This document shows, in pieces, positions 2,479 to 31,303 of a DNA stretch of 32,299 bases. Both the position numbers and the translations under genes were made by a program. Under the pieces are notes generated by a model that worked only from the letters and a program-made list of their open reading frames with translations, made no database searches and was not told the DNA's origin. Origin of the DNA: Candidatus Lindowiibacteriota bacterium (lineage in GTDB: Bacteria; Lindowbacteria; 2-12-FULL-62-27); the NCBI GenBank assembly GCA_023249255.1, contig JAHFCY010000004.1, positions 1,457 to 33,755 on the forward strand, given 5' to 3'. Within the stretch, counting starts at the first letter, position 1; every line of letters begins with the position of its first letter.

Positions 2479-2500
2479 TAATTATCCTGCGGCGGATGGT

Positions 2501-3177: not shown

Positions 3178-3198
3178 GACGTGCCCAGCCCCGGGTTT

Positions 3199-3852: not shown

Positions 3853-3893
3853 TTTTCAATCCTTTTGTTTTTTACTCTGGGCCGAGACATGGC

Positions 3894-4921: not shown

Positions 4922-4977
4922 GGTTGTCAGCGGCGTGAGGGCGGCGAACGCCGCCCGCCGTGAGTGCCAAGTTACAC
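4922..4977 (-). repeat. Truncated attC site 5
   Basis: Only the right two thirds of the family repeat remain, from the TTGTCAGCGGCGTGAGG segment to the right box GTTACAC (4971-4977). The left box and about 30 bp of the left arm are replaced by the DNA carrying hicBA. The hairpin ATCCGG-CGT-CCGGAT (4891-4905) stands just before the break. The right box shows moderate complementarity to the left box of attC 6. Confidence 0.7.
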
Positions 4978-5035
4978 GCCTTACAGCGCCCCACAAATGT
5001 GCGCTTGGACAACCTGTTTTCATTCGCATACATAA

Positions 5036-6346: not shown

Positions 6347-6377
6347 GATGTCAGTAATTCAATCTGCGCTGTATGTC

Positions 6378-6486
6378 GCGTAACGACCAGGCGCTCACGC
6401 ACGCCCGGAGCGAAGCGGAGGGCGTGCGGGAGGGCCGGATCAGGACTCCGACTCCATTCCCGACCGCCGGCAGTGCCAAGTTAGGC
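6378..6486 (-). repeat. attC site 6 (long subtype)
   Basis: Boxes GCGTAAC (6378-6384) and GTTAGGC (6480-6486). The central part is a longer variant (CCGGAGCGAAGCGGAGGGCG ... TCAGGACTCCGACTCCATTC) shared almost exactly with attC 7. The match continues outside the site into the hairpin at 6502-6528. Confidence 0.78.
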
Positions 6487-6501
6487 GACGTAGTAGCCGC
6501 C

Positions 6502-6528
6502 CCACGGCGGCCACGATGGCCGCCGTGG
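6502..6528 (-). other. Perfect 12-bp hairpin beside attC 6
   Basis: CCACGGCGGCCA-CGA-TGGCCGCCGTGG is a perfect 12-bp stem with a 3-nt loop. It lies between the 3' end of cassette gene 6 and attC 6, and an identical copy lies beside attC 7 (7517-7543). No T-run follows on either strand, so it is not a standard terminator. It could block read-through, or be a dispersed palindrome carried with this attC subtype. Confidence 0.7.
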
Positions 6529-6562
6529 CGCAGTGCCGCCGTATCCGATTTACAGAATGTCA

Positions 6563-7324
6563 TCATACATCCCATGCGATATTTGAAATAAGCTTGCATC
6601 GGTAGCATTTGAAATGAAAATAATCATGCCAAGGTTTCTCCAGCAACCATTTGCCGCCACACTTTGGACATTTCCGCCGCTTTTCATCTTTTTTGGATCG
6701 CCCATAATATTTGTTGAGGTAATAATATGTTGGGATTTTGATTTCCTTTTCGATATTTCTACATAACTCGTACGCATCTTTTGAGAGTCGGCTAGAAAAA
6801 GAAGCTACTTGTTTATGACCCCAGTGTTCACCCACTCCTGACCCTACGAAGAGTCCATCGCATCTGTTGTGCGCCTCTTTCCACAATTTTATACCCAGTA
6901 GTCTTTCTCGAGTAAGTTTGAATCTGTATATGGGGATAGGTCTTTTACACTGCCCACAACGAAGTGGGGATTCATATGAAAAATATGTCGTGAGGAAATA
7001 AACACTTGATGGTCGTTTGCAGTGACAAACAGGCCCGGCCTCGGGCGCAGTACCCAATATCTTTATACTCGGTTTTCTATCGGACTTGTCTAAAATCTCT
7101 TTGTACGCTTTGAGGGCTATAGTGGTGTGAAATCTGCTTGATAAAGAGTTTCGTTCGTGGCTGACGATAATCTGACGAGGTATCTTATGGTTTAAAATGG
7201 TTGTGTAATCTGCAATCTGCCCGCTCGTCATAAGTTCTGCGGAGTATGACCAAAGGTCGATTAAATAATCTTCTATCCGAATCTTTTTTGTATCAGGGTA
7301 AAATTTATACTCGAGTACGTACAT
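6563..7324 (-). CDS. Cassette gene 6: DUF2310-family zinc-ribbon protein
   Basis: This 253-residue protein starts MYVLEYKFYPD, like the DUF2310 family (Zn-ribbon, possibly nucleic-acid-binding). Diagnostic blocks are YFLTTYFSYESPLRCGQCKRPIPIYR in the middle and, at the C-terminus, IPTYYYLNKYYGRS followed by RKCPKCGGKWLL...HFKCYRCKLISNIAWDV. Two CxxC pairs form the C-terminal zinc ribbon and another CxxC lies in the SPLRCGQC block. Length fits the family. The frame stays open upstream to 7429, but that part runs through attC 7; the ATG at 7324, preceded by GGGAAA, agrees with the family start. The family's biochemical role is unknown, so its presence as a mobile cassette is informative. Confidence 0.85.
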   Translation of the reverse strand: MYVLEYKFYPDTKKIRIEDYLIDLWSYSAELMTSGQIADYTTILNHKIPRQIIVSHERNSLSSRFHTTIALKAYKEILDKSDRKPSIKILGTAPEAGPVCHCKRPSSVYFLTTYFSYESPLRCGQCKRPIPIYRFKLTRERLLGIKLWKEAHNRCDGLFVGSGVGEHWGHKQVASFSSRLSKDAYELCRNIEKEIKIPTYYYLNKYYGRSKKDEKRRKCPKCGGKWLLEKPWHDYFHFKCYRCKLISNIAWDV

Positions 7325-7392
7325 CGCTTTTATTTCCCATGTTATGTTTTCCAGCCACCACGATGGCGGCTGGCCTTGGACGGTGCTATGGC

Positions 7393-7501
7393 AGATAACG
7401 ACCAGGTGCTCCCGCACGCCCGGAGCCAAGCGGAGGACGTGAGGGAGGGCCGGATCAGGACTCCGACTCCATTCCCGACCGCCGTGAGTGCCAAGTTATG
7501 C
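7393..7501 (-). repeat. attC site 7 (long subtype)
   Basis: Boxes AGATAAC (7393-7399) and GTTATGC (7495-7501). The interior is nearly identical to attC 6, including the long central insert. The right box with its flank (14 nt) complements the left box of attC 8 in 13 of 14 positions. Confidence 0.8.
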
Positions 7502-7516
7502 GACGTAGTGGCCGCT

Positions 7517-7543
7517 CCACGGCGGCCACGATGGCCGCCGTGG
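7517..7543 (-). other. Perfect 12-bp hairpin beside attC 7
   Basis: This is an identical second copy of the 27-nt palindrome at 6502-6528 (12-bp stem, CGA loop). It lies between the 3' end of cassette gene 7 and attC 7. Its constant position relative to the attC site suggests it was duplicated together with the site. Confidence 0.7.
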
Positions 7544-7592
7544 CGCAGTTACCGCCGCATCCGAATGTTTACGAATGTCCAGTCTCCATCTT

Positions 7593-8231
7593 TCATTTTT
7601 GCATAGTTCCAATTTTCCGCGAAACCAAAATGACCACCATGATCAACGTGATGGCGAAGGATAAAAACAAGATCATCTTAAACAATACTCGGTGGAAGGA
7701 TTCCGGCGGCCGCTGAGTTTGTACAGCGAGACTATTCCGCCCACTTTCGGATGGGTGCTCAATCTGCCATTCAAACCAGTTTTTCAGTGGATCAAAGATG
7801 AATTTTGAGGAGAAAGTGCCATAGACAAGCGACATGGATGCCAACGTAATGCCGCCGGAGAGTACCACAAAATTTTTATCTTGCGCTATAAATTGCTCTA
7901 GGGAACTCAAGACACTAATAATACCCAAAAGTAGCCCAAACCAGCCTGCATACATGGAATATCGCGACAACATGGAATACAGCCTCACATATATCTTTAA
8001 CTCTTCCTGATTGCATTTGACTCCCTCTGAAAATGCAGTTCTAAATGCGAGCCAGCATTTTTTAAGATCGTTTTTGTCTTCAGACATCCAGGTCGCGCCT
8101 ATTGTAATACCGAAAACAATTGCGGTCGCACTTGGCGATATAAACATTCCTAAATCTAGGCGTTCAAATGTCATTGTTATACCAATGGCCGTGCCGATGA
8201 GAATTAGGCCGACAATTTTTTCCAGTCTCAT
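7593..8231 (-). CDS. Cassette gene 7: MotA/TolQ/ExbB-like membrane protein (paralog of cassette gene 4)
   Basis: This 212-residue protein shares layout and many motifs with the gene at 3199-3852: the N-terminal KIVGLILIGTAIGI helix, MFISPSATAIVFGITIGATWM (compare the MotA IVxGGTLGA pattern), ELKIYVRLYSMLSRYSMYAGWFGLLLGII and SMSLVYGTFSSKFIFDPLKNWFE. The second half resembles the MotA/ExbB helix pair with a YGxxxxxxxxxP motif. A last transmembrane helix (about 185-205) is extra. GGAG lies 8 bp before the ATG. No ExbD- or MotB-like partner follows. Two diverged copies in separate cassettes show repeated acquisition or cassette duplication. Family assignment rests on motif patterns and could be wrong. 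Confidence 0.72.
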   Translation of the reverse strand: MRLEKIVGLILIGTAIGITMTFERLDLGMFISPSATAIVFGITIGATWMSEDKNDLKKCWLAFRTAFSEGVKCNQEELKIYVRLYSMLSRYSMYAGWFGLLLGIISVLSSLEQFIAQDKNFVVLSGGITLASMSLVYGTFSSKFIFDPLKNWFEWQIEHPSESGRNSLAVQTQRPPESFHRVLFKMILFLSFAITLIMVVILVSRKIGTMQK

Positions 8232-8279
8232 TTAATTTTCTCCATCGGTCTTAAAATATCTTTCTCAAACAGCTTCCCC

Positions 8280-8303
8280 CCATCCGCCATGGATGGCGGA
8301 TGG
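8280..8303. other. 24-nt palindrome upstream of cassette gene 7
   Basis: CCATCCGCCAT-GG-ATGGCGGATGG is an 11-bp perfect stem with a 2-nt centre. It sits between attC 8 and the start of cassette gene 7. A related imperfect palindrome (CCAGCC...GGCTGG) occupies the same place beside attC 7, around 7354-7376. Both could be insertion relics or part of the cassette leader. Confidence 0.6.
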
Positions 8304-8323
8304 CCATAGGCGGCCACTATGTC

Positions 8324-8412
8324 GCATAACGACCAGGTGCTCCCGCACGCCGCCCCAGTTGTCAGCGGCGTGAGGGCGGCGTATGCCGCCCGCCGGGAGC
8401 ACCAAGTTATGC
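8324..8412 (-). repeat. attC site 8
   Basis: Boxes GCATAAC (8324-8330) and GTTATGC (8406-8412) are mutually complementary and bound the typical GC-rich palindrome. The right box and flank complement the left box of attC 9 over 16 of 17 positions, the best such junction in the array. Confidence 0.82.
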
Positions 8413-8455
8413 GTCGTGCCCCGCCCCACATAGCTACGCCCACAAAACCTTAATC

Positions 8456-8932
8456 TCATTTTTGCGTTGTTTTAGAACTATTTTTCTTTATCTGTTCGAT
8501 GATTGCCTTTGGATTTGCCAACCAAAAACTTAACAAACTCAACATTACAAATGATATCTGAGGAGACTGAGCGCCACCCAGCATTATCCAAACCAGTCCA
8601 TAAATCGAAATAGACTGACAAAACGCCCAGAGAACAATCGCATAGACTAAAATAGGGTCTTGGCCCTTTGTTGTTGGTCCTGTCGTGGGCTTATAATATA
8701 ATCTCAAAAGAAACGGTTGAAATTTAAAATTTGTGAAGATCGCTATGGATTCGGCCAGAGCAAGAGCAACCAGAATAGGGAACATAATATCTGGTGGTAT
8801 AATTTCCTTCTTTCGCTGATCTATCAATATTTTTCCTATATATAGAAACGCCCAATTTGAGTGAGTAAATGCCCAATATATGTATTTCATCGTTGGTGGT
8901 GGGTTATCTGTTATACATGTTTGTGATTGCAT
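8456..8932 (-). CDS. Cassette gene 8: four-helix membrane protein with proteolipid-like motifs
   Basis: This 158-residue protein has about four hydrophobic segments (about residues 17-36, 48-68, 93-117 and 122-140). Two of them carry related motifs, ALAESIAIF and FCQSISIYGLVW, which resemble the ion-binding helix of rotary ATPase c/K subunits (E-x-I-A-I-Y-G-L). The first has a Glu at the usual carboxylate position and the second a Gln. This likeness is short and may be convergent, so I do not call it an ATPase subunit. AAAGGA precedes the ATG at 8932; a later ATG (residue 15) is possible. It is the only gene in its cassette. Confidence 0.68.
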   Translation of the reverse strand: MQSQTCITDNPPPTMKYIYWAFTHSNWAFLYIGKILIDQRKKEIIPPDIMFPILVALALAESIAIFTNFKFQPFLLRLYYKPTTGPTTKGQDPILVYAIVLWAFCQSISIYGLVWIMLGGAQSPQISFVMLSLLSFWLANPKAIIEQIKKNSSKTTQK

Positions 8933-8995
8933 TTTGTCGATCCTTTCGGTGTCGGTTTCTCAATTCTTGTTTTCTTCCGTCCTGCGGGGCATGAC

Positions 8996-9068
8996 GCATA
9001 ACGACCAGCCGTTCCCGCACGCCGCCCCAGATGTCAGCGGCGTGAGGGCGGCGAATGCCAAGTTAGGT
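8996..9068 (-). repeat. attC site 9 (short form)
   Basis: Boxes GCATAAC (8996-9002) and GTTAGGT (9062-9068). At 73 bp it is the shortest complete site. It lacks the GCCGCCCGCC arm seen in its relatives, so the stem is shorter on one side. The right box complements the left box of attC 10 in 14 of 16 positions. Confidence 0.78.
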
Positions 9069-9119
9069 GACGGCGCCCGCCCCACATTTCTGCTTGGACA
9101 ATCTGCTTTACTATGAAAT

Positions 9120-9335
9120 TCATTTCGCAATGTCCTTCGATGCTTTGTCTTCATATATCTGCTGTTTTTCAATCTTCGCCTGTTTAGCTTCTTTTAATGC
9201 CCTCATCAATTTCGGTATCGCGGCGGCCGCCAAAATCCCAATAATAGTAATGACCAGAAGAATCTGACTTGAGCTATCAAAGATTACAGAGGTTTTCTTT
9301 GTTTTTTCATCCTTGTCCATCAAAAAAAATGACAT
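9120..9335 (-). CDS. Cassette gene 9: small membrane protein with pilin-like helix
   Basis: This 71-residue protein has one hydrophobic helix, SSQILLVITIIGILAAAAIPKLMRA, which closely matches the N-terminal helix of type IV pilins and pseudopilins (ELLIVIAIIGILAAIAIPNL). It lacks the features of a real prepilin: no G-F cleavage site, no Glu at +5, and the helix begins near residue 23. The C-terminus is a short charged helix, too small for a pilin globular domain. The ATG at 9335 directly follows the stop of the upstream zinc-finger gene, with GGAG in its last codons, so the two genes are probably co-translated in one cassette. A TTG at 9353 is a less likely start. Confidence 0.62.
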   Translation of the reverse strand: MSFFLMDKDEKTKKTSVIFDSSSQILLVITIIGILAAAAIPKLMRALKEAKQAKIEKQQIYEDKASKDIAK

Positions 9336-9336
9336 T

Positions 9337-9711
9337 CTATTTCCACTCTCCAAATCTCTCTAAAATACATCGGTTACATATAGAAGCGTTTTTTCTCTGG
9401 ATTATTTTTATATTGTAGGTCTCTTTATCAACTCCACAGATAAAACACTTCGCATTTTTGTCGGTGCCAAATAAATCGTTTGCAGATTGGTTGATTGGTT
9501 TTATGAGGTGAGTATCCTTTTCAGTGTCGACCTCTGGGTGGGACATCACCTTCTCAATCATTCTGTCAAATGCGGGGTCTTGTTTTAGCCATACCCTATA
9601 TTGAAGAAGACATAGGTGACAAATGGCTTGATCTGATTTTCTGATGACGTTTGTGGGTATTCGGCGGTTTTCGCAGAAACTGCATTTTATGAGTTCATCT
9701 GTTGAAGTCAT
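9337..9711 (-). CDS. Cassette gene 10: protein with two ClpX-type C4 zinc fingers
   Basis: This 124-residue protein has two copies of a CxxC-(17-19)-CxxC finger: CSFC...ICHLC near the N-terminus and CFIC...ICNRC near the C-terminus, joined by about 55 residues. The spacing and the I-C-x-x-C-I/L ending match the zinc-binding domain of ClpX, which dimerises and binds adaptors and substrates. No AAA+ domain follows. A stand-alone double finger could act as an adaptor or decoy for ClpXP, or simply bind protein or nucleic acid. The frame opens at 9741 inside attC 10, but the ATG at 9711, with GGAG 11 bp upstream, is preferred. It shares a cassette with the gene at 9120-9335. Confidence 0.7.
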   Translation of the reverse strand: MTSTDELIKCSFCENRRIPTNVIRKSDQAICHLCLLQYRVWLKQDPAFDRMIEKVMSHPEVDTEKDTHLIKPINQSANDLFGTDKNAKCFICGVDKETYNIKIIQRKNASICNRCILERFGEWK

Positions 9712-10560: not shown

Positions 10561-10633
<73 letters not shown>

Positions 10634-10719: not shown

Positions 10720-13530
10720 ATGACCATACACCAAACCGGGCGCGGGCGCGCATTGGCGGCAGCGGTCGTGCTCTGCATCGTCGTTGTCGCGCCGGGCGCC
10801 AGCCACGCCAAAACCGTTCAACCTGTTGCGGAATGGTTTGATCCGAATCTTCCCCTGTTCGCCGCCGACGCTCTGGTCGATCCGAATCACGAAGCCGTCT
10901 ATGTCGCCGACCAGATCACGGCAAGGATTTCGAAAATTTCGCTCAGCGCGGACGGCAGTGCCGTGGTGATTCCGGGTGGAGGGACGATTGAATCTCTCGA
11001 GGGCGCCGGATTTTCTCCAACACGGGGCGACGTCCTGGCGATCGTCTCGCGGCGGGCCGAATTTCGGACGCTTCTGGAGGGTGACATCAAACTCGACTGG
11101 GCGGCCGGGAGACTGCGGATGTTTGACGGGCGGCGGATATTCGGCGGCAACCGATGGATCGAGATGGACCCGGCGCGGCCGCAATCGACGGCGGCTGTCC
11201 GGGACGCACCGACGCTCGCAAATGACTCCGCGCGGGATCCATCCCTGCCGGCGGAAGCGGTGGCTGAGATGGCGGGGCTGGGATTTCGAATCCGACCGTT
11301 ACGATGGGCGCTTCGAAACGACATTCTTTCCGTGATCGACGTGCAAGGCCGTGCGTTTGTTTTCCTTCGTGACAAATCCGCCGCGGGACGGTCCCGGCTC
11401 CGGCTGCTTCTTCAAATTGACAGTCTCACATCGCGGCTGGCTGATTTCGATGACGCCGAATTGACCAGCCTATCGGCCGATCAGATCGACATCCGGATCG
11501 GAAAAGAGATCTGGGCGGCAACCGTGTCGGATGATCCTTACACGGGGGAACGCGCCTTTGCGTTCAACGCAACAAAAACCGGCGGGAGCGGGGGATCCGC
11601 GCGGCTGGCGGATGCAGCCGGAAAAAGAAAACTGCAGTTGCCATATCAATGGACCGATTTTCTGCGCCAGCCCCAGATCCTGGCCGAGGGACCGGCGGGA
11701 CAACTCATTTCCTGCAAAATCCGGCTGACGAATCTCGGATTGAAATCCCTGTTGATTCTGTCCGAATCGAACCGGATCCGCATTGTTCCGTGGCGGAGCG
11801 ACGACGAGTTGCGGCCGGAAGACATCGTGACGATGCCGGAGGGATTTGCGGTTCCGGAACCGCCCATGTGGCGGCTCATCGGATGGTCGGCGGAATTCAA
11901 CGGTCTGATTTCGATCGGCAACAGCCGATTTCAGCGGCTGGCCCCGATCCTGTCGGAAAAATCACCCGGGAGGGACGGCGGCGGACGGGCGGATATGACG
12001 GGCGGCTCGGACACGGTGATCGAAACATCCGGATTCTTCGCGCTCGACGCCGAACAATCCATTCTGGCCGAATGGCCAAGGGTGGAATGGCCGCGCACAA
12101 CGGCATTCACCAGCCTGCAAATGAATGCCGAACCGATGGATTTGACGGTGACCCAGACCGGCGAGGTGTTCGTTCTGGCCCGCGATGCCGAACACGGTCT
12201 GCGGCTGTTTCAAATTTCGGAAGTACCCGAGCCGGTCCTCGACATTCCCGACCACATGGATCCGCTGTTTCTACCGGGCGGACGGCCGACGATTTTGTCC
12301 CGGGTTGAGAGACATCAGACAACCTGGATTGTCGCCGGCCAACCGCCGACGCTGATTCGGAAGGAGACATTTGACGCAAACTGGCATGCCGGTCAGGGCA
12401 TTGCCTGGCGCGACGAATCAGCCGGATTCATTCTCTTCAACACCGATCCGGCCGGTCAGAGCGATACCGGAGTGACGATACCGATCGAGGGATTGCACGA
12501 AGTCCGCCAGGCGCTGATTCAAAGTCCGGACGTGTGGCTGCTCGAAACCGATTCCGGCATTGTCCGGTTGGACGCCCGGGATCCGACCGAACCCGACGTG
12601 TCGGTGATCGATCCCCAGGGCGGAGAACTTCGGGTGTCGCCATTCGGTCCGCTCTTCACCGTGCCGGCGGCCGGGACGTCCGAAGTATTCGTGGTGGGGC
12701 CGGGCGGAAATAAAATTTCTCTGGGGCGTTTCAATGCGTCGTGGGAGGCGATGGGCGCCACGCTCGACCGGCTGTTCTTCAAGGATCGCGCAACAGATAA
12801 AATTTTGATCGTGCCCCGGCACGCGGCCGGAGACGACGTCGCCCAGGTGACCGGGCGGCTCGAATTCAATTACGACGATCCGTCCAACGTGCTTCTCTGC
12901 GCCATTGGAGATGAAGCATACTGCATGATGGTCCGGCCCAGGACGCCGACGTTTCTGCTCGGACCCATGCCATACGGAAGCTACATGCTGGATGTGTCAG
13001 CCGGCGGATTCGATCTTGCATCGCCGCCCGTCTTTTCGGTGACCCAGCCTGAAATCATTCTGCCGGACGTGAAACTGGTGAAGTCCCTCGATTTTCTATA
13101 TCGGCGCGCGGTTTCCTACGAAGAATCAGGCAACGCCGACATGGCGAAATTCAACTACGACATGTATCTGTCGCTTTCGTCGGACGGCGGGTCGGCAGAC
13201 GACGCGCGATCGGCCATTGTGCGATTCTTTGCGGACGATTCCCGCTGGAATGACATGATCGATTTTTATCAGAAAACTCCGGCAGGCACGCGCTGGACGG
13301 CGGATGCCCTGCGCCTCGTGTTCGACCATTTGCCGAGACTTGCCGAACGGCTCGACATTGCCCGAAAACTGATGTCCCAGGCCGCCAGACCCGATCTTGG
13401 GCGCCTGGAGCTGTTGTTCTTTCTGTATAAATACACGCTCGATCCGGCCTACAAATCGACGGCGGGCGAACCGGGCGTGCCGCCGGTCTATGCAAAATTT
13501 TTCGAAAGTTTCGACCGGTTTCGGAAATGA
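10720..13530 (+). CDS. Secreted 936-residue protein of unknown function
   Basis: An N-terminal signal peptide ends around ASHA-K (residues 1-30), so the protein is exported. The long middle part has many short strand motifs (EAVYVADQITARISKISL, EVFVLARDAEHGLRLFQIS, KILIVPRHAAGDDVAQVTG) in the style of a beta-propeller or NHL-like protein, but I cannot delimit repeats with confidence. The last 150 residues are helical and TPR-like (DFLYRRAVSYEESGNADMAKFNYDMYLSLSSDGGSADDARSAIVRFF). I recognise no family. The start ATG has no strong ribosome site but fits the signal peptide. It overlaps the phospholipase-D-family gene downstream by 4 bp (ATGA), so the two are probably translated together and act in the same compartment. 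Confidence 0.85.
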   Translation: MTIHQTGRGRALAAAVVLCIVVVAPGASHAKTVQPVAEWFDPNLPLFAADALVDPNHEAVYVADQITARISKISLSADGSAVVIPGGGTIESLEGAGFSPTRGDVLAIVSRRAEFRTLLEGDIKLDWAAGRLRMFDGRRIFGGNRWIEMDPARPQSTAAVRDAPTLANDSARDPSLPAEAVAEMAGLGFRIRPLRWALRNDILSVIDVQGRAFVFLRDKSAAGRSRLRLLLQIDSLTSRLADFDDAELTSLSADQIDIRIGKEIWAATVSDDPYTGERAFAFNATKTGGSGGSARLADAAGKRKLQLPYQWTDFLRQPQILAEGPAGQLISCKIRLTNLGLKSLLILSESNRIRIVPWRSDDELRPEDIVTMPEGFAVPEPPMWRLIGWSAEFNGLISIGNSRFQRLAPILSEKSPGRDGGGRADMTGGSDTVIETSGFFALDAEQSILAEWPRVEWPRTTAFTSLQMNAEPMDLTVTQTGEVFVLARDAEHGLRLFQISEVPEPVLDIPDHMDPLFLPGGRPTILSRVERHQTTWIVAGQPPTLIRKETFDANWHAGQGIAWRDESAGFILFNTDPAGQSDTGVTIPIEGLHEVRQALIQSPDVWLLETDSGIVRLDARDPTEPDVSVIDPQGGELRVSPFGPLFTVPAAGTSEVFVVGPGGNKISLGRFNASWEAMGATLDRLFFKDRATDKILIVPRHAAGDDVAQVTGRLEFNYDDPSNVLLCAIGDEAYCMMVRPRTPTFLLGPMPYGSYMLDVSAGGFDLASPPVFSVTQPEIILPDVKLVKSLDFLYRRAVSYEESGNADMAKFNYDMYLSLSSDGGSADDARSAIVRFFADDSRWNDMIDFYQKTPAGTRWTADALRLVFDHLPRLAERLDIARKLMSQAARPDLGRLELLFFLYKYTLDPAYKSTAGEPGVPPVYAKFFESFDRFRK

Positions 13531-14720
13531 AAATCGCCGCACGGATCATCCTGGTTGCCGCGCTCGGGATCGCGCTCGCCATGCTGTACCGGCGCATCGA
13601 ACGTGAAGATGCCGCGACGACGGTCAAGGCGCCAAGTGAAACCGAGCGACTCGTCGAGCGGATCCGCCGCCTTCCCGAAGCGCCGGCAGGCTGGAAACTC
13701 GTCGAGACGGCGCCCGACGAAATGAATCTTGATGATATCCCCGACATCCAGGACGAGCTTCAAGTTCTTGCCGACGGCGCGACGAAACACATTGTATTTG
13801 AAAGCTATTTTATCCGGAAAAACTGGGGGAAATCGGCCAAACGCATTCTCGACTCGGCAGGCCAGGGCGTGCTGGTACTGGGCGTCCTTCACCCCAATCC
13901 CATGAGCGACGCGCCATTCGTCCGCGAGCTCAAGCAGGCCGGCGCCCAGGTGATCGAACGCGATCTTGCGCCGCTCGGCGGAAATCCCGAGGAGGGATAC
14001 ATTCACGCCAAATTCCTCGTCGTGGACGGCGAGCGGGGATATATCGGCAGCGCCAATTTTTCGGCGGCAGGCATGCGGGAAAATCGCGAGATGGGAATTA
14101 TTTTCGAAGACGAGTCCATCGCCGCGTCGCTTGAAATGCTGGCCGGCTACGACGCCGGACAAATTTCGTCCTGCCGGGCGCGAGATATCCGCCCGGCGGT
14201 TCTGGCGCAGGGCGCACCGGACGGATTTGCGATGGAAGGACTCCCTCTGGCCGAGGCCGCCGTCGCCGCTCTTTGCGATCTGGCCCGGAAAGAAATCGAT
14301 ATCATGATGTTCACGTTCAGCCATCAATTTGGAAATTATTCGACCATCGCCAGTCCCATCCGCGCCGCCGTCCGGCGTGGCGTCAAGGTCCGGCTCATTC
14401 ACGAGGCCCGCACGATGCGTGAGCTTCAGGGCGTCTATCCGACGCTCAAGGACATGAAACAATGGGGCGTAGAGGTTCGCGTCGCCGACATTTCGGCGCT
14501 CGGAAAATCCGAGGATGGCCAGTACCACGTCAAGGCCATGCGGATCGATGATGACCTTCTCTGCGTCGGAAGCAACAACTGGACGCAAGCGGCCTCGCAC
14601 GAAAACCGTGAAATCTCCCTCGTCGTCCGGTCCCACCGCATGACGGACCAGTTCAAGGAGCGCTTCAACGCCGACTGGAACACGACCGGTTACATCGAAC
14701 CGTTCGTCGGAGGAAATTAG
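13527..14720 (+). CDS. Phospholipase D-family protein
   Basis: This 397-residue protein has an N-terminal signal anchor (about residues 5-20) followed by two PLD domains. Each carries the HxK(x)4D catalytic motif: HAKFLVVDGERGYIGSANFS at about residue 159 and HVKAMRIDDDLLCVGSNNWT at about residue 333. Both motifs are complete, so the enzyme is probably active. The family includes cardiolipin synthases, phosphatidyltransferases and nucleases. The single anchor and the secreted partner suggest an extracytoplasmic site, but the substrate cannot be read from sequence. It overlaps the preceding gene by 4 bp. Confidence 0.9.
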   Translation: MKIAARIILVAALGIALAMLYRRIEREDAATTVKAPSETERLVERIRRLPEAPAGWKLVETAPDEMNLDDIPDIQDELQVLADGATKHIVFESYFIRKNWGKSAKRILDSAGQGVLVLGVLHPNPMSDAPFVRELKQAGAQVIERDLAPLGGNPEEGYIHAKFLVVDGERGYIGSANFSAAGMRENREMGIIFEDESIAASLEMLAGYDAGQISSCRARDIRPAVLAQGAPDGFAMEGLPLAEAAVAALCDLARKEIDIMMFTFSHQFGNYSTIASPIRAAVRRGVKVRLIHEARTMRELQGVYPTLKDMKQWGVEVRVADISALGKSEDGQYHVKAMRIDDDLLCVGSNNWTQAASHENREISLVVRSHRMTDQFKERFNADWNTTGYIEPFVGGN

Positions 14721-18385: not shown

Positions 18386-19582
18386 ATGAATTTTTTAATG
18401 GTGTCTCCGTCCTATCCTCCGCGGATATTTTATTTCGCCAAACGGCTGAAAGAGGCCGGATTCAATATATTTGGAATGGGCGACGCGCCTTACTCCCAGT
18501 TCAATGCCGACCTCAAATCGTCCATGCGGCATCACATCCGTCAGCGCTTGGACTGCTATGATCCCAACGGCGGTATTCTCGATGCCGCGTATCGGCCGAT
18601 CCACGCCAAAATAAAAAAACTGATCCGGGATTACGGCAAACTGGATTACATCGAATCTTTCAATGAATGGTGGCTTCCTCTGGACGCCCGGCTTCGCCTC
18701 GATTTTGACGCCGAAGGCGTCCGGCCGGACGAGCTTGAATGGATCATCAGAAAATCGAAAATGAAGGAAAAGTTCCGGCAGGCCGGGGCCGGGACGGTCA
18801 GGGGCGAGATTATCAGGGATGAAGAGTCCATGCGGGAGTTTAAGAAACAAATCAACGGCGACATCATCGCCAAACCCGACCGGGGACTCGGCTCCGCGCA
18901 TACCTATCGACTGAAGAGTAATGCCGACATCGCCGAATTTTGGAAGAAAAAAAAGCCGGGCGCCGTCTATTTCATGGAAAAATATATTCAAGACGAAAAA
19001 CGCCAATTCATGTCGTTTGACGGCCTGACCGACCGGGACGGCGACATCGTTTTTTATACAGTGCATGTCTATAACGACGGAGACCTCGAGATCGCCACCT
19101 CCGGAAAAACCATTTATTACCACAATCTCCGGCGCGCCGAGATTCCCGAAAAGTTCAGGGAGATCGGATTCAATACGGTCAAGGCGTTCAATCTCCGCAA
19201 GAGATTTTTTCATATTGAATTCTTCAGAATCGGTGAAGACTACTATGCCGTCGAAATCAACGCCCGTCCGCCGGGATTTTTCCACCTCGATATGATGAAC
19301 TTCTCCAACGGCATCGACATCTGGGCGGAATACGCGAGGGTGATGAGAAACGAAAAATTTGTGGTCAGCCCCCAAGGCGACAAAATCTGCATGCAGATCG
19401 GCCGATTCAATCGAATCAAATACCGAAACCCAGCCAGGGCAATCCTGAAAAAATATTATTCAAACGTCGCCTACCAGTGCTCCCTCGGCATCGACCTGTA
19501 TGGCGACTGGGTCTGCCTGATCCTCACCGACGATCACGCCAAACGACAGGAAATCCTCAACTTCGCCGTGGAGCAATTCTAA
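18386..19582 (+). CDS. ATP-grasp carboxylate-amine ligase-like protein
   Basis: This 398-residue protein begins with a Rossmann-like preATP-grasp domain (MNFLMVSPSYPPRIFYFAKRLKEAGFNIFGMGDAPYSQ). The ATP-grasp domain follows, with KLDYIESFNEWW, the nucleotide-binding segment GDIIAKPDRGLGSAHTYRL, the hinge YFMEKYIQ and the metal-binding block YYAVEINARPPGFF (E-x-N). The overall layout matches biotin-carboxylase/PurT-type ligases and many uncharacterised ATP-grasp enzymes that join a carboxylate to an amine. The substrate is unknown. It is convergent, with only 7 bp between stops, with a decarboxylase and a second ATP-grasp ligase, so a functional link is possible but not shown. Confidence 0.82.
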   Translation: MNFLMVSPSYPPRIFYFAKRLKEAGFNIFGMGDAPYSQFNADLKSSMRHHIRQRLDCYDPNGGILDAAYRPIHAKIKKLIRDYGKLDYIESFNEWWLPLDARLRLDFDAEGVRPDELEWIIRKSKMKEKFRQAGAGTVRGEIIRDEESMREFKKQINGDIIAKPDRGLGSAHTYRLKSNADIAEFWKKKKPGAVYFMEKYIQDEKRQFMSFDGLTDRDGDIVFYTVHVYNDGDLEIATSGKTIYYHNLRRAEIPEKFREIGFNTVKAFNLRKRFFHIEFFRIGEDYYAVEINARPPGFFHLDMMNFSNGIDIWAEYARVMRNEKFVVSPQGDKICMQIGRFNRIKYRNPARAILKKYYSNVAYQCSLGIDLYGDWVCLILTDDHAKRQEILNFAVEQF

Positions 19583-19589
19583 TTCGTTT

Positions 19590-21020
19590 TTATCTGAACC
19601 ACTCGCGCGGGTAACGGCGGTCGAAGGATTCGCGTTCCGTCAGTTTCCGTGCGGTTCCGGATTTCGTGAGCAGGACATACGGCGCGAGCGGGAAAAGAAA
19701 TCTCATGGCGGAACTGCTGGAGTAAGCGCCCATGTTGGCGACCCATAGATGATCGCCGGGCACGGGCAGATCGCCCCAGCACGTGTCGCTCCACCAGTCA
19801 TTCGGATCGCACATCGGGCCGAAAACCCGGCACTTTCGCTCGCGCGGCGCGTGACCGGGACGCGAGAGATTGACGACAGGGTGATACTCCTCTTCCATTC
19901 TCCGGTCATGCGTTAAATGGATGCCGCCGTCGACGATGACGGCGTCCCGGCGTTTTTTTGTGAGAGTTGTGACAAGGATTCCCACAGTGTTGTTGACTAT
20001 CCATCTACCAGGCTCAAATCGCACAATGAGATCCTGTCTGATACCGGGGATGGATAATATCGAACGACTTATTTCCTCGGAGATGGCCGAAGCATACTCG
20101 GGAATATCAGCCATCCTCGGAAAAATTTCCCGGCGATCGACCAGACGGCAGCCGGCTTCGGCTTCGGCAACAAGAATCAACCGGCCGATGGCGGTGTCCA
20201 GTAAACGAATTCCCTCGCCGCGAGGATAGAACCCGCCGCCAAGATCGATGTATTGGAGGCAGGCGCGTTCCTTGAGCGACAGGCGCCTCAATACCCGTGC
20301 GAAAATCCGGATCAATTCCCGATAGGGTTCCGGAGACGTGTTCCAGCTCATGTGACCATGAAGCCCCTCCCACTTGAGCCCGCGCGTCGCGATGATCTGC
20401 CGGATCAGCTTGACGGTGTCGTCGGGCGACACGCCGAATTTTCGCCACGTTCCGCCGATTCTGGCGCCGGGATCGATCCGTACCCCCATTCGGATGGGCC
20501 GGCCGGCCGGCAGTTTTAGTCGCCGGATTCGGGATAACTCATTGGCATGATCGACGTGCAGCCAGACGCGGTCGGCGTGTTGAGCGGCAAGTCGGAGTTC
20601 CTCGTCGCTCTTGGCGGGACCGTTGAACAGGATTTGTTTGCATCCTAATTTCAGCGCCAGTTGCAGTTCCATCCCCGATACCACTTCAGCGTCGAGTCCT
20701 TCCCGATGCAGTCTCCGGCAGAGATAGGGCAGTTCGTTCGCCTTGTAAGCGTAGAAGGTTTCCGCGCGTACACCGCATCGGGCAAATGCCCGTGTAAAAT
20801 TTCCAGCCCGTTCCACGAGGTCGGATTCACTCAGCACATAACAAGGCGTGCCGAAATCCCCGGCGACTTTCAGAAGGATGGAGCGGCGTTCGGTTGCGAG
20901 CCGCACTGAATCGTGGATGGGTGTCTTGTCTTCCTCGGCGAGCGGCTCCATGAGAACGTCCTTCAGGCGGGCAAGGACGGCGGGTCTTTGACTGGTCGTC
21001 AGGATCGGATTACTGATCAT
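19590..21020 (-). CDS. LysA-like fold-III PLP-dependent decarboxylase
   Basis: This 476-residue protein is of the ornithine/diaminopimelate decarboxylase group. The PLP-binding Lys is in TFYAYKANELP; GPAKSDEEL matches the LysA 'GPGKs' segment; the phosphate-binding loop is YIDLGGGFYP; FEPGRWIV is the conserved EPGR block; VFGPMCDPNDWW replaces the usual 'GPLCESGD' catalytic Cys segment with Cys kept; and GAYSSSSAMRF matches the 'GAY' region. An N-terminal extension of about 45 residues precedes the barrel. The altered C-P-N-D segment argues against calling this true diaminopimelate decarboxylase. The start overlaps the ligase stop upstream by 4 bp, so the pair is an operon. The likely substrate is an amino acid or a ligated amino-acid derivative. 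Confidence 0.85.
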   Translation of the reverse strand: MISNPILTTSQRPAVLARLKDVLMEPLAEEDKTPIHDSVRLATERRSILLKVAGDFGTPCYVLSESDLVERAGNFTRAFARCGVRAETFYAYKANELPYLCRRLHREGLDAEVVSGMELQLALKLGCKQILFNGPAKSDEELRLAAQHADRVWLHVDHANELSRIRRLKLPAGRPIRMGVRIDPGARIGGTWRKFGVSPDDTVKLIRQIIATRGLKWEGLHGHMSWNTSPEPYRELIRIFARVLRRLSLKERACLQYIDLGGGFYPRGEGIRLLDTAIGRLILVAEAEAGCRLVDRREIFPRMADIPEYASAISEEISRSILSIPGIRQDLIVRFEPGRWIVNNTVGILVTTLTKKRRDAVIVDGGIHLTHDRRMEEEYHPVVNLSRPGHAPRERKCRVFGPMCDPNDWWSDTCWGDLPVPGDHLWVANMGAYSSSSAMRFLFPLAPYVLLTKSGTARKLTERESFDRRYPREWFR

Positions 21021-22027
21021 TTGATGTTGCGATGGCGCCCCATCGAGACAATCCGTTCCATAATTTCAAAATAGCCGATCCCTTCCGCCATGGCGGCCTT
21101 GACGAAATAGCAGTCCTTTTCGGATAGCCGCGGGTTGGCGTTGAGTTCGAGAAACCAGGGCTGTCTCGTCTCGTCGAGACGGAAATCGATCCGCGCGTAT
21201 CCGGTCAGGTTCAGCAGTCTGACCAGCTTGCTGATGTCGGAGAGGATTTTCGTGATGGACTCCTCCGGCAATTTCGCGGGGCATTCCTCGCTGTGCCCGC
21301 CGAAAATCGGATTGTCTTCATGCCACTTGGCCTCGTAGCTCAGAATCGGTATCGCGCCCCCGGGAAGTTTGTCGAAACGAATCTCGAGGAACGGAAGGAT
21401 TTGTGCCTCTCCGTTCTCCGCAAATAGTGGAACCGTCGCGTCCGTGCCTGCGATGTATTCCTCGATCAGCCAGGGACCCGGGTGTCCGGCGCGAATCGAT
21501 TCCAATCGACTCTTGAGTTCAGGAAGACTTCGGCAGAAATTCTCCTGCCGGATCCCGACGCTCGCGTCCTCCGCCGAGGGCTTGATGATCACAGGAAATG
21601 TCAGAGGCACGTCACTCGGGAGACTGTCGCCGAGGGTAATGCCCCTGGCAATCCTCATTCCCGATTGTTCCGCGAAGATTTTCATCCACGGTTTATTGGT
21701 GCTCAGCATGAAAGTAAACGCGTCGCACCCGCTGTAGGCCAATCCAAGTTTCTCCAACACGGCCGGCCAATGGACGTCCCGGGACCGTTCCATCATGTTG
21801 ACCACAACCCCGGATTCTTTCTTGAGTTTATTCAGTTCGGCGAAGACATCGGGATCATCCCCGGACAGATATTCAACGGGATATTTTTGAGACAGAGCCC
21901 TCCCCATCTCCTGCGCGGTCCGCCATGTGTCCGCATCGTCCGCCGGGGCATTCGCCGAGGTGCAACTGCAAAGTATCAGGACGGGCCTGACATCGTTCGA
22001 TGACGGGGAATCCGACTCCAGCCTCAT
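21017..22027 (-). CDS. D-alanine-D-alanine ligase-like ATP-grasp protein
   Basis: This 336-residue protein has the Ddl architecture: an N-terminal Rossmann domain (VLILCSCTSAN), VVNMMERS with SGCDAFTFMLSTNKPWMKIFAEQSGM, the nucleotide-binding PVIIKPSAEDASVGI, LIEEYIAGTDATVPLF and the metal-binding YARIDFRLDETRQPWFLELNANPRLS. A separate canonical ddl sits in the cell wall cluster at 29398-30408, so this copy probably ligates something else. It overlaps the PLP decarboxylase gene by 4 bp. The ATG at 22027 directly follows a 9-bp hairpin; a TTG at 22039 inside that hairpin is a less likely start. Confidence 0.84.
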   Translation of the reverse strand: MRLESDSPSSNDVRPVLILCSCTSANAPADDADTWRTAQEMGRALSQKYPVEYLSGDDPDVFAELNKLKKESGVVVNMMERSRDVHWPAVLEKLGLAYSGCDAFTFMLSTNKPWMKIFAEQSGMRIARGITLGDSLPSDVPLTFPVIIKPSAEDASVGIRQENFCRSLPELKSRLESIRAGHPGPWLIEEYIAGTDATVPLFAENGEAQILPFLEIRFDKLPGGAIPILSYEAKWHEDNPIFGGHSEECPAKLPEESITKILSDISKLVRLLNLTGYARIDFRLDETRQPWFLELNANPRLSEKDCYFVKAAMAEGIGYFEIMERIVSMGRHRNIK

Positions 22028-22051
22028 AGCCGCATCCAATCAGATGCGGCT
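22028..22051 (-). promoter_or_regulatory. Hairpin abutting the start codon of the Ddl-like gene
   Basis: AGCCGCATC (22028-22036) and GATGCGGCT (22043-22051) form a perfect 9-bp stem with a 6-nt loop that ends one base before the ATG. It would cover the GGATG that could serve as ribosome site, so it may limit translation. A TTGACC lies a few bases upstream on the minus strand. Confidence 0.4.
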
Positions 22052-22130: not shown

Positions 22131-22307
22131 TTATGATCCAAGCCATGAAGCCATACAAGCCATAACCAATGCCCCACGGTACGCGTTCATAAGTCGTTCC
22201 AAGGATTCAGACAATTTTTTCGTGTAGAAGTGGGTGTAGATTCGCGCCGCCGTGATCGTCTTGTGCCCCATCAGTGCCATGCGCTCATCCATGTCCACGC
22301 CGTTCAT
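22131..22307 (-). pseudogene. C-terminal stub of a tyrosine recombinase/phage integrase
   Basis: Only the last 58 residues survive. They hold the box II signature MDERMALMGHKTITAARIYTHFYTKKL, with the conserved L-M-G-H, the nucleophilic Tyr in IYTHF and the following helix SESLERLM. An in-frame TAA stands five codons upstream of the first Met and no catalytic Arg region is present, so the gene is dead. It is 181 bp from tRNA-Thr, the kind of site such integrases target. It is a relic of an integrated element and is not recognisable as an integron IntI. Confidence 0.82.
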
Positions 22308-22487: not shown

Positions 22488-22560
22488 GCCAACGTAGCTC
22501 AGACGGTAGAGCAACGCACTCGTAATGCGTAGGTCGGCGGTTCGATTCCGCCCGTTGGCT
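22488..22560 (+). tRNA. tRNA-Thr (CGT)
   Basis: This is a complete 73-nt cloverleaf. The acceptor GCCAACG pairs perfectly with CGTTGGC, the discriminator is T and CCA is not encoded. The anticodon stem ACGCA/TGCGT encloses CTCGTAA, giving CGT. It lies between the integrase stub and the convergent lipoprotein gene. Confidence 0.94.
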
Positions 22561-28384: not shown

Positions 28385-29401
28385 TCACCTGCCTTGTGTC
28401 ATCCCGCGGTCAGGCCGCAGACGGGTCAATGGAGTCGTGACCGCCCTGTCCGACCGGGTGGGCGGAACCGGCGCGGGTCCGCTTGAAATCCGGCGGTCCG
28501 CAACTGGCTCGTTCGAATACGCGATCACGTCCTGCTGGAAGCGAACATCTATGTACTGCACCGGCCGGGCCGGGGACGATCTGTCGGATCCATTCGCCGG
28601 AGAATCCGGCCGCTGTTGAATTTTTCGAAGAATCCGCTGAAGGGTGTCGATCTTGAACGGAAACGTCGCGGGATCCGCCTTGACGATCATATCGCCCGCA
28701 AATGTCAGTTCGAAATAATCGGACGAGACCACGCGGATCGATTTCAGTTTCGGCGAAAATCCGGGACGGAGGGCCGCAATCATTCTCAAAAGTCCGGCGC
28801 CGGCCGGATGCTCGGCGATGTTTCGCCCGGACGTGACAGCGGAACCAACAAGACCGGAAACGTCCGGCAACTCGGACGGCGGCGATCCGCCCATCTGATA
28901 CAGCATGCCTTCCTTGTCGACTTCGAGTTTCCCCACTCGCCCGCGAATGGCCGCAATGCCCGTCCGTTCGGCAACGACGACGGTCATGGTCCCCCTCCCG
29001 ATGTTCTTGGTCACGACGGCCGACCGGACTGCCGGAATAGTTTTGAGCACATGTTCGGACATATCCGTAACATCGACCTCCATTAGATTATCGGCATTCG
29101 TGGACCGTAACTTGCGGTATATTTCCGACCGGACGGCGTCGGGCGTGAGGCGGCGCGTCCCGATGATTTCAATCGTGCCGGGCAGGATTGGAAGCGTGCC
29201 GAAGGAGAAGGTCACGAAGTCGAAAAGGACCCAACCGATCGGGACCGCCGCGAGAATCATCCAAAGAATTTTGGGCCGGCGGCGAAACGCATCGAGCATC
29301 CGGATCCACCGTTCCTTGAGATTCAATCCGAACCCCGAACCCGAACGCCGGGGGCGCCGGTTGATCGTCAAGACTTTTCCGACCGTTTCGTCGCGGCTCA
29401 T
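28385..29401 (-). CDS. ftsQ: Cell division protein FtsQ (POTRA domain)
   Basis: This 338-residue protein has a basic cytoplasmic N-terminus, one transmembrane segment (about residues 44-64: ILWMILAAVPIGWVLFDFVTF), a POTRA domain (GTIEIIGTRRLTPDAVRSEI ... IPAVRSAVVTKNIGRGTMTVVVAERTGIAAI) and the FtsQ beta domain. A Pro/Arg-rich tail of about 50 residues follows, longer than in most homologues. FtsQ links FtsB/FtsL to the divisome. The ATG overlaps the ddl stop by 4 bp. Confidence 0.9.
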   Translation of the reverse strand: MSRDETVGKVLTINRRPRRSGSGFGLNLKERWIRMLDAFRRRPKILWMILAAVPIGWVLFDFVTFSFGTLPILPGTIEIIGTRRLTPDAVRSEIYRKLRSTNADNLMEVDVTDMSEHVLKTIPAVRSAVVTKNIGRGTMTVVVAERTGIAAIRGRVGKLEVDKEGMLYQMGGSPPSELPDVSGLVGSAVTSGRNIAEHPAGAGLLRMIAALRPGFSPKLKSIRVVSSDYFELTFAGDMIVKADPATFPFKIDTLQRILRKIQQRPDSPANGSDRSSPARPVQYIDVRFQQDVIAYSNEPVADRRISSGPAPVPPTRSDRAVTTPLTRLRPDRGMTQGR

Positions 29402-30408
29402 GACGCGGCCGCCATCCGGATGAGGCGGCGGATCAATTCAGGAAATTCGACGCCCGCGGTCCGCGCCGACATCGGCAGGAGACTCGTTCCGGTCATCCCG
29501 GGAAGCGTGTTGATTTCGAGAAAATAAGGCTGGCCGTCGGCAGGCCGGTCCATGCCGGGAAGATTCGGGCCGGACGCGGCGGCCGGCGGGATGCCGACCA
29601 TCACGTCAATCCGGCATAGATGCCGGATGTCCAGCCTGCGGCAGATTTTTTCGGCGAATTTTTTCAGTTTCTCGAGCAAACCCGGCGATACGTCGGCCGG
29701 GCAGATGTATTCCGTCATGCCTTTGGTGTATTTGGCTTCAAAGTCGAAGAATTTCGCCTTGGGCCGGATTTCGATGACCGGCAGCATCTCCATCGGATGG
29801 CCGAACACCGGGATCGTCAATTCGCGTCCGAAAATTCTCTCTTCAATCAGCACCGGCGTTTTGGTCCGTTTCAGGAGAGCGCGAAGGTCGGACTCCGTTT
29901 CGAGAAAAACCACGCCGACGCTTGATCCTTCCGTGAGCGGTTTGGCCACGGCCGGAAAGGGCGGCAGAATCTGCGGAAACGCGGGCGGGTCGGCCAGCGT
30001 CCAGCGGGGCGTGGGAATCCCGAGCGCCTCAAACGCCCATTTCGTATGGAGTTTGTTCATGCAGATCGCGCTGGCCGCGACGCCGCATCCGACGTAGGGC
30101 ACGCCCAGCGTCTCGAAAAATCCCTGGATCGTCCCGTCTTCGCCGCCGGGCCCGTGGAGCGCGGGGAAGGCGACGGACGGGCCGTAGGCGAGCAATTTTT
30201 TCGCCACACCCGGATCTGCCGGATCGAACGTCTGGAATTCCACATTCAGTCCTTTCAGCGCCTCGGCAACCGCCTTCGCGCTTTTAAATGAAATTTCCCT
30301 CTCCGCTGATTTTCCACCGCCGAAAAGGGCGATTTTCCGCGTCCCGGCGGCCCGCCACGCTTTTGCCGTTTTGGATCGGGCCGTCGTCCGCCGCGTTTTG
30401 GATTTCAC
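29398..30408 (-). CDS. ddl: D-alanine-D-alanine ligase
   Basis: This enzyme makes the D-Ala-D-Ala dipeptide for peptidoglycan. Signatures: KIALFGGGKSAEREISFKSA, FPALHGPGGEDGTIQGFFETLGVPYVGCG, MNKLHTKWAF, AVAKPLTEGSSVGV, CRIDVMVG and FLEINTLPGMTGTSLLP. The open frame reaches back to 30564, but the family start is near residue 77 of it. The best start is GTG at 30408, with GGAGGTGG (30418-30425) 9 bp upstream; it gives a 336-residue protein with a basic extension of about 22 residues before the family start. No ATG, GTG or TTG lies between it and the conserved core. The gene therefore overlaps murB by 125 bp. Confidence 0.93.
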   Translation of the reverse strand: MKSKTRRTTARSKTAKAWRAAGTRKIALFGGGKSAEREISFKSAKAVAEALKGLNVEFQTFDPADPGVAKKLLAYGPSVAFPALHGPGGEDGTIQGFFETLGVPYVGCGVAASAICMNKLHTKWAFEALGIPTPRWTLADPPAFPQILPPFPAVAKPLTEGSSVGVVFLETESDLRALLKRTKTPVLIEERIFGRELTIPVFGHPMEMLPVIEIRPKAKFFDFEAKYTKGMTEYICPADVSPGLLEKLKKFAEKICRRLDIRHLCRIDVMVGIPPAAASGPNLPGMDRPADGQPYFLEINTLPGMTGTSLLPMSARTAGVEFPELIRRLIRMAAAS

Positions 30409-31303
30409 GAACGATTTCCACCTCCAATTCCAGATCAATACCGAATTTGTTTTTGACGGTTTCGCGGGCAATCGCAACAAGTTCCTCGAAATCGCGGAAC
30501 GTCGCGCGGCCGTCATTGAGGAAAAAATTTCCGTGAAGGCCGGAGATGGTGAGTCCGCCGACACTCCGGCCTTTCAGACCCGCCTCGTCGATCAGCCGGC
30601 CGGCTGACTTGTCGGGAGGATTTTTGAAAATGCATCCGACGCTCCGGCCCGGCGGTTGGGTGGAATTCCGGTATTTCATCCGCGCGGTGACCTCGGCCAT
30701 GATTTCTTCGCGCGGCGCGGGGGTCAGACGAAGTTCGGCCGAAAGGATCGCCGCGCGGCGCCTGTGAAATCCACTCGATCGATACCCAAACTCAAGTCGA
30801 TCGGCCGGCAGAGTCACGATTTCATCCCGGCCGGCGTCGAAGAACGTGACCGACGCGACCGCCCGGGCCGTTTCATAATCGCGGGCGCCGCTGTTCTGAT
30901 AGATCGCCCCGCCCAAGGTTCCCGGAATGCCGGTGAGTTTTTCCAGACCCGAAAGGCCCGATTCCATCGTGCGCGTGATCAATGCAGGCAGCGGCACCGA
31001 CGCGCCGGACAACACGCGATCTCCGGATATCTCTATTTTTTTGAATTGTTCGCCCAGCCGGACCAGCAGGCCAGAAAATCCGTCGTCCGTGAAAACGAGA
31101 TTGGTGCCGCCGCCAAGAATTTTGACTGGGATTCCAATCTCGCCGGCCGTTCGAACGACAGTCCGAAGAGTTCGATCATCGTCCACGGTGATCGCACCGC
31201 CGGCGAGGCCGCCGATGCCCAGGGAGCTGAATCGCCGCAGCGACACGCCGCGCGCGGGGGCAAGACCGGTTTTCGATTCAAAGGCCGGCCACTTATTGTC
31301 CAT
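30284..31303 (-). CDS. murB: UDP-N-acetylenolpyruvoylglucosamine reductase MurB
   Basis: This 339-residue flavoprotein reduces UDP-GlcNAc-enolpyruvate to UDP-MurNAc. The FAD-binding part includes RRFSSLGIGG, ILGGGTNLVFTDDGFSGL and GLEKLTGIPGTLGGAIYQNSGA. The catalytic region has FGYRSSGF and SVGCIFKNP, with Cys where many MurBs have Ser. KGRSVGGLTISGLHGNFFLNDG is also typical. The ATG at 31303 fits the family; the frame extends to 31363 inside murC. The C-terminal 40 residues (after EIVREI) are an unusual extension that overlaps ddl. The start overlaps murC by 11 bp. Confidence 0.94.
   Translation of the reverse strand: MDNKWPAFESKTGLAPARGVSLRRFSSLGIGGLAGGAITVDDDRTLRTVVRTAGEIGIPVKILGGGTNLVFTDDGFSGLLVRLGEQFKKIEISGDRVLSGASVPLPALITRTMESGLSGLEKLTGIPGTLGGAIYQNSGARDYETARAVASVTFFDAGRDEIVTLPADRLEFGYRSSGFHRRRAAILSAELRLTPAPREEIMAEVTARMKYRNSTQPPGRSVGCIFKNPPDKSAGRLIDEAGLKGRSVGGLTISGLHGNFFLNDGRATFRDFEELVAIARETVKNKFGIDLELEVEIVREIQNAADDGPIQNGKSVAGRRDAENRPFRRWKISGEGNFI

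Follow-up and report, generated by a model that had tools for sequence, protein, structure and literature searches.

A coupled Ddl-like ligase and alanine-racemase-fold decarboxylase in a Lindowiibacteriota genome, a candidate unit for a lysine-derived amine

A stretch of 32,299 nucleotides (nt) from a Candidatus Lindowiibacteriota bacterium (assembly GCA_023249255.1, contig JAHFCY010000004.1, positions 1,457 to 33,755; hereafter the window) encodes a Ddl-like ATP-grasp ligase, DDL2, and a pyridoxal phosphate (PLP) decarboxylase of the alanine-racemase fold, DEC. The two genes form a real, conserved ligase and decarboxylase unit. With moderate confidence, we read this two-enzyme unit as an accessory to a module of KamA, a lysine 2,3-aminomutase, and Ddl-like ligases, which together would give a lysine-derived, amide-linked amine. 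The adjacent gene LIG3 is a bystander. Coordinates are listed in Table 1.

Table 1. Genes and other features of the window discussed in the text.
Feature	Position (nt)	Strand	Size and start	Basis
DDL2, predicted Ddl-like ATP-grasp ligase	21017..22027	-	336 aa, ATG at 22027	Pfam PF07478
DEC, predicted alanine-racemase-fold PLP decarboxylase	19590..21020	-	476 aa	
LIG3, RizA-like L-amino-acid-ligase fold, ATP-grasp	18386..19582	+		Structure model and Foldseek
Cell-wall D-Ala-D-Ala ligase (comparison gene, no part of the unit)	29398..30564	-		PRK01372 and dcw cluster neighbors
Open stretch between DDL2 and tRNA-Thr	22134..22307	-		Translation
tRNA-Thr	22488..22560	+		

The original prediction placed two ATP-grasp ligases and a LysA-like decarboxylase here. 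The three open reading frames (ORFs) are present as described and the enzyme types are right, DDL2 and DEC by Pfam and LIG3 by its structural match to ATP-grasp ligases. The unit had been drawn out to 22051, which lies beyond the ATG of DDL2, although a TTG at 22039 is a possible alternative start (340 aa). DDL2 scores 78.5 bits against Dala_Dala_lig_C (Pfam cut-off 24), and in the alignment K112, K149, K234, R279, D281, and N296 are invariant and E294 is near-invariant. By this score and these conserved ATP/Mg residues, DDL2 is a predicted Ddl-like ATP-grasp ligase. As had been proposed, it is distinct from the cell-wall ddl. The latter lies in a murC/murB/ddl/ftsQ/ftsA/ftsZ cluster and scores 293.8 bits against PRK01372 (D-Ala-D-Ala ligase, subfamily cut-off 243), whereas DDL2 scores 95.9 bits. 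The translational coupling of DDL2 and DEC is also borne out: the stop of the first and the start of the second share an ATGA (4 nt overlap).

The same pair is found on JAADGH010000001.1 (L079), a contig of a Planctomycetota metagenome-assembled genome (MAG). The single match of the contig scan is a DEC relative with 66% identity over 476 residues, and a DDL2 orthologue (58%) is located directly upstream. The probable start of the L079 DEC also gives an ATGA overlap. Both genes belong to a run on one strand (4306-9437) in the order Ddl-A, GNAT, KamA, DDL2, DEC. A scan of 395 genomes of the phylum of genome G062 with the L079 DEC resulted in one weak match (G342, E-value 1.1e-34), with no ATP-grasp match adjacent to it. 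The plasmid collection has 195 records with a match to DEC; every one is below 60% identity, and the best 40 of the 195 are at 25-31%.

DEC scores 81 bits against Orn_Arg_deC_N (cut-off 23.4) and also matches Orn_DAP_Arg_deC. Its K93, E336-R339 (EPGR), C404, and D408 are invariant in decarboxylase alignments. The DEC model (predicted local distance difference test, pLDDT, 81.7) aligns with solved members of the fold at Z-scores of 30-37 over about 330-410 residues. The PLP lysine, the EPGR motif, the catalytic Cys/Asp, and the modeled fold identify DEC as a predicted alanine-racemase-fold PLP decarboxylase. The segment CDPNDWW had been described as an altered catalytic segment. This description does not hold: Cys404 and Asp408 of the motif (GPMCDPNDWW) are invariant in 15/15 aligned decarboxylases, and it is the substrate pocket that differs. 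The aligned pocket segment is N-D-L-V-R-P-T-L-Y in the genome's own LysA and H-L-T-H-D-R-R-M-E in DEC, which places D372 and E376 of DEC at the Arg and Tyr positions that bind diaminopimelate (DAP). The Tyr presumably contacts the distal carboxylate of DAP in LysA. The Arg of DAP decarboxylase binds this carboxylate according to one structural account, which also assigns the position after the catalytic Cys to binding the side-chain amine of the substrate (PMC7857480). In DEC that position is Asp405.

Judged by its sequence, DEC is not LysA, because the equivalents of the carboxylate-binding Arg and Tyr are missing and the genome has a LysA of its own. The latter is encoded on contig C339 and scores 474.2 bits against the lysA model TIGR01048 (equivalog cut-off 297.9); DEC scores 160.9 bits. 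With this LysA present, the original prediction is spared the objection that DEC might be the sole copy of lysA. LysA is also the only PF02784 protein in the genome besides DEC. It is highly improbable that the pair serves the cell wall or lysine synthesis, with DEC as a second DAP decarboxylase and DDL2 as a divergent D-Ala-D-Ala ligase. The best NCBIfam models of the two proteins are lysA and D-Ala-D-Ala ligase, and the nearest fold to DEC is that of a DAP decarboxylase, but both scores are well below the curated cut-offs, the true LysA and Ddl are encoded elsewhere in the genome and score above them, and the Arg and Tyr of LysA are Asp and Glu in DEC.

DEC falls in a clade of five members that stands apart from LysA in the tree (support 100/99). 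The best solved-structure match of a profile of these five sequences is N-citrylornithine decarboxylase (2.9e-46, full length), followed by DAP decarboxylase (3.7e-40), BtrK (1.7e-35, full length), and others, with lysine/ornithine decarboxylases at 1.5e-29. DEC alone scores 101.9 bits against the FslC model NF041039, under the cut-off of 500. Three closer relatives of DEC came from scanning 386 genomes, and the 12 genomes of the phylum of G638 contributed five more places, with one genome counted twice. At seven of these eight sister places the gene order is SpeD-like, GNAT (Acetyltransf_6), ATP-grasp ligase, DEC. The eighth (L179) has a contig end upstream of DEC, and a ligase thus directly precedes DEC in 7/7 places with upstream DNA. 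Ligase and decarboxylase overlap by 4, 4, and 1 nt at three of the sister places. Some frames are imperfect: the ligase frame is split in L178, the ligase and DEC frames are short in L180, and the DEC frame is short in L181. The sister-branch ligase belongs to a different ATP-grasp family from DDL2. Thus the conserved feature is the pairing with DEC and not one type of ligase.

These loci bear on the possibility that DEC is a plain lysine or ornithine decarboxylase of ordinary polyamine synthesis and that its overlap with DDL2 is incidental, which we regard as unlikely. The acidic D372 and D405 fit a free basic amino acid, LysA as the only other PF02784 protein leaves the genome with no other dedicated decarboxylase of this fold, and the sister branch adjoins SpeD-like genes. 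However, genes of the DEC clade follow an ATP-grasp ligase wherever upstream DNA is present, which polyamine decarboxylases do not need, and the five-sequence profile fits lysine/ornithine decarboxylases worse than N-citrylornithine decarboxylase.

The SpeD-like/GNAT/ATP-grasp/decarboxylase operon (L165:7910-11810 on the minus strand, L166, L167, L177, L178, L180, and L181) was found in G642 and in genomes of the small phylum of G638. Its SpeD-like protein scores 80.6 bits against AdoMet_dc, under the equivalog cut-off. More distant DEC homologues (23-37% identity) from the first relatives scan were rejected as orthologues and fall into separate clades. An ATP-grasp gene is located directly upstream of the decarboxylase in 9/12 of their loci (L004-L015), and the pairing is therefore commoner than the clade of the window alone. 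The loci with this arrangement are L004-L008, L010, L011, L013, L015, and L169. Most have a Y-E-K-P-like N-terminal stretch that resembles the leader of a ribosomally synthesized and post-translationally modified peptide; it varies or is missing in L005, L006, L011, and L013. In one example of the set (L071:7451-12181, minus strand), the genes are preceded by one for a PqqD-family protein and followed by one for a protein that resembles a urea transporter and has a peptidase-like tail. Stand-alone ATP-grasp ligases coupled to alanine-racemase-fold decarboxylases recur, with various ligase types, in little-studied lineages.

The original prediction looked for partners among the three neighboring genes and missed KamA and Ddl-A, which belong with the pair instead. 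The window's genome (G000, 88.7% complete) has one KamA match, on contig C107, followed by an adjacent Ddl-A gene. This Ddl-A groups (100/100) with those of G001 and G002, the two other genomes examined from the phylum, both in the same family as the window's genome, and it therefore belongs to this lineage. We did not find a Ddl-B after Ddl-A on C107, and DDL2 is the sole candidate among the Ddl_C matches of the genome. In a ligase tree of 31 rows, DDL2 falls with Ddl-B (branch support 93/95). Foreign flanks were removed for this tree by keeping only the final 330 and 335 residues of two Ddl-B rows and the initial 330 of another. From this placement DDL2 likely stands in for the missing Ddl-B, and we go no further than likely because a grouping with Ddl-A is not rejected (approximately unbiased test, p-AU 0.292).

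Among 145 genomes searched, 39 have a KamA match (E-value 1e-60 or better), and the stretches around KamA were examined in all of these. A Ddl-A-like gene is present in 13/39 stretches, six of them with a GNAT gene, and nine stretches have both Ddl-A and Ddl-B. All ten aligned KamAs of the module keep two particular Asp residues, which we take to be lysine-binding. The pathway is probably lysine-based, and the link of KamA to the pair comes from one operon (L079) and one split genome. We found no description of the KamA/Ddl/Ddl/GNAT module in the literature searched, whose reach left out most subscription journals. The module lends itself readily to product discovery.

Some module loci carry further domains. 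A histone-deacetylase-family protein is encoded within the KamA/Ddl-A/Ddl-B/GNAT runs of L077 (6081-7811, minus strand) and L143 (7249-8991, minus strand), the L143 copy with a GNAT domain, a hint that the route may include acetylation and deacetylation. Long frames (649-722 aa) with a C-terminal Ddl-like ligase are found in L083-L085, L091, and L092. The two that were scanned (L084 and L085) are fusions of the ligase with a methyltransferase domain.

Several observations weigh against a DDL2-DEC unit that serves the KamA/Ddl module. We found only one close relative of the pair, located on a contig of a MAG. The window's genome carries KamA/Ddl-A on a contig other than that of the pair, a GNAT homologue was not found in what is assembled of it, and the placement of DDL2 with Ddl-B is indecisive given the Ddl-A alternative. 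G001 and G002 carry KamA-Ddl-A-Ddl-B without DEC, and DEC is therefore not essential to the module. No Ddl-like gene was found in the KamA stretch of 26/39 genomes, although some stretches end at contig ends. As for DEC, a single-sequence search with the L079 protein puts DAP decarboxylases first, and structural comparison of the DEC model ranks a DAP decarboxylase (2qgh, Z 37.1) over 7kh2 (Z 34.9). Such comparison does not separate DAP decarboxylases from conjugate decarboxylases.

From the genes, their coupling and co-occurrence, and the residues conserved or changed, we infer the following activities, order, substrates, and product. DDL2 would form an amide bond at the expense of ATP, and DEC would remove the carboxylate of a basic amino acid before or after this step. 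Decarboxylases of this fold (fold III) require a free alpha-amino acid for their PLP chemistry. Amino acids joined through the alpha-amine or alpha-carboxylate are therefore unsuitable, and the substrate of DEC would be a free basic amino acid or one linked through its side chain. In the first order, DEC would supply cadaverine or putrescine for ligation. In the second, DEC would act last, on a side-chain-linked amino acid, in the manner of N-citrylornithine decarboxylase. Either order would give an aminoacyl-diamine. This reading is supported by D405, kept beside the catalytic Cys at the position that binds a side-chain amine, and by D372 in place of the carboxylate-binding Arg. KamA would make beta-lysine for the broader module with Ddl-A, Ddl-B, and often a GNAT acetyltransferase, and beta-lysine would be the natural donor or partner. 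The expected product is a small cationic pseudo-peptide that contains lysine or beta-lysine and has an amine at its end. The combination of ligase and decarboxylase in the original prediction is supported by the pairing in L079 and in 7/7 sister loci; the "modified dipeptide or polyamine-like compound" would be its predicted product.

Should the pathway yield a beta-lysine amide, known beta-lysine osmolyte chemistry would be extended, and the enzymes would be compact tools for making aminoacyl-diamines. A wider and more doubtful proposal, which we offer tentatively, is that KamA, tandem Ddl-like ligases, and a dedicated conjugate decarboxylase make up a route, independent of nonribosomal peptide synthetases (NRPS), to a new class of cationic aminoacyl-diamines that contain beta-lysine. 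The route would occur across many bacterial families, and DDL2-DEC would convert the peptide end into an amine. If so, the products could serve as stress solutes or polyamine substitutes.

The translation of the open stretch between DDL2 and tRNA-Thr resembles the C terminus of a tyrosine recombinase. It is possibly a remnant of the insertion event through which DDL2-DEC arrived. Because this recombinase-like stretch lies beside tRNA-Thr and neither relative has the pair, the sequence suggests that DDL2-DEC was acquired. The GC content and third-position GC (GC3) of the pair match native genes, and thus the acquisition is not obviously recent. The same fragment and the same absence from G001 and G002 would fit a pair that was acquired recently as mobile DNA near tRNA-Thr, is possibly non-functional, and has no settled role. 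We consider this quite unlikely, as both frames are intact, the catalytic residues are conserved, and the GC and GC3 agree with the surrounding native genes.

LIG3 converges on DEC as described, with 7 bp between the stops (19582 and 19590). The protein has no Pfam match in the family scan. Its AlphaFold model (pLDDT 92) best matches RizA (4wd3, E-value 2.5e-22), one of the ATP-grasp L-amino-acid ligases, in Foldseek. G001 and G002 have LIG3 orthologues with 71-72% identity and no match to DEC, and when 30 ORFs of the window were compared with the roughly 20 kb surrounding these genes, nothing except LIG3 was shared. In L079, which has DDL2 and DEC, there is no LIG3 match within 17 kb. LIG3 was thus rejected as a member of the unit: it is outside because it is conserved in two relatives without DEC and in different surroundings. 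We give very little credence to a single biosynthetic unit of DDL2, DEC, and LIG3. The three genes lie side by side and LIG3 is a ligase of the ATP-grasp type, but it is on the opposite strand and neither the relatives nor L079 keep the three together. Of the three-gene unit originally predicted, the link between ligase and decarboxylase stands, in L079 and in the 7/7 sister loci, and the inclusion of LIG3 does not.

Elsewhere in the window, a left arm (1010-8932) is lower in GC: three of its genes were measured at about 0.39-0.43, compared to 0.56-0.61 for most of the rest. It starts beside tRNA-Met (930-1005), and tRNA-Phe is at 10561-10633. The arm encodes a DUF2310 Zn-ribbon protein and a MotA/ExbB-like protein (7596-8231), along with a second MotA/ExbB-like candidate of borderline score (3202-3852), and is possibly a genomic island. 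PADLOC found no defense family among eight proteins of the left arm or in 10720-13527. A PLD-family protein at 13527-14717 resembles DrmC of DISARM (NCBIfam 107.2 bits, cut-off 133; PADLOC DrmC 93.3 bits). Its gene adjoins those of a 936-aa protein without a Pfam match (10720-13530) and of an RmuC family protein.

Known systems share parts of this arrangement. In pyrrolysine biosynthesis the radical SAM lysine mutase PylB is followed by the ATP-grasp ligase PylC, in a pathway not known to include a decarboxylase. PylB and PylC resemble the module in pairing a radical SAM mutase with an ATP-grasp enzyme, but the L079 DDL2 scores only 23.4 of 248.3 bits against PylC. In butirosin biosynthesis, BtrJ is the ATP-grasp partner of BtrK. 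The BtrK group decarboxylates an amino acid bound to a carrier or acyl group, comparable to DEC in the second order above, and the match of BtrK to the DEC clade profile spans its full length. However, we saw no carrier protein beside DEC, and KamA and tandem Ddl-like ligases are not known from those pathways. The AblA/AblB pathway to the osmolyte N-epsilon-acetyl-beta-lysine shares a lysine 2,3-aminomutase and a GNAT acetyltransferase with the module (PMC3543383). AblA is the nearest model to the module KamAs, but these are below its equivalog cut-off of 525.4 (443.5 bits in L079, 505.5 on C107), the L079 GNAT does not match the AblB model, and the module adds two ATP-grasp ligases. In E-64 type pathways, an ATP-grasp ligase occurs with a dedicated PLP decarboxylase that supplies the amine before ligation, and stand-alone amide ligases join amino acids to decarboxylated amines (PMC12568646). 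These enzymes are fungal, the amine is added by an ANL-type amide synthetase, and no aminomutase is described for these pathways.

The rhizoferrin system provides the model for decarboxylation after ligation. Its description has FigC acting on citryl-joined ornithine, and names BtrK, SbnH, AcsE, and MccE alongside as such decarboxylases (PMC7857480). FigC has a Met where DEC has an Asp beside the catalytic Cys, and DEC is far under the FslC cut-off. The partner FigA is an NRPS-independent siderophore (NIS) synthetase, whereas DDL2 is of the ATP-grasp type, and the context is that of citrate. FigC/FslC with FigA resemble DDL2-DEC, in the order with ligation first, in that a ligase-like synthetase links an acid with a basic amino acid and the resulting conjugate is the substrate of an alanine-racemase-fold decarboxylase (PMC7857480). 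N-citrylornithine decarboxylase is also the closest solved structure to the DEC clade profile.

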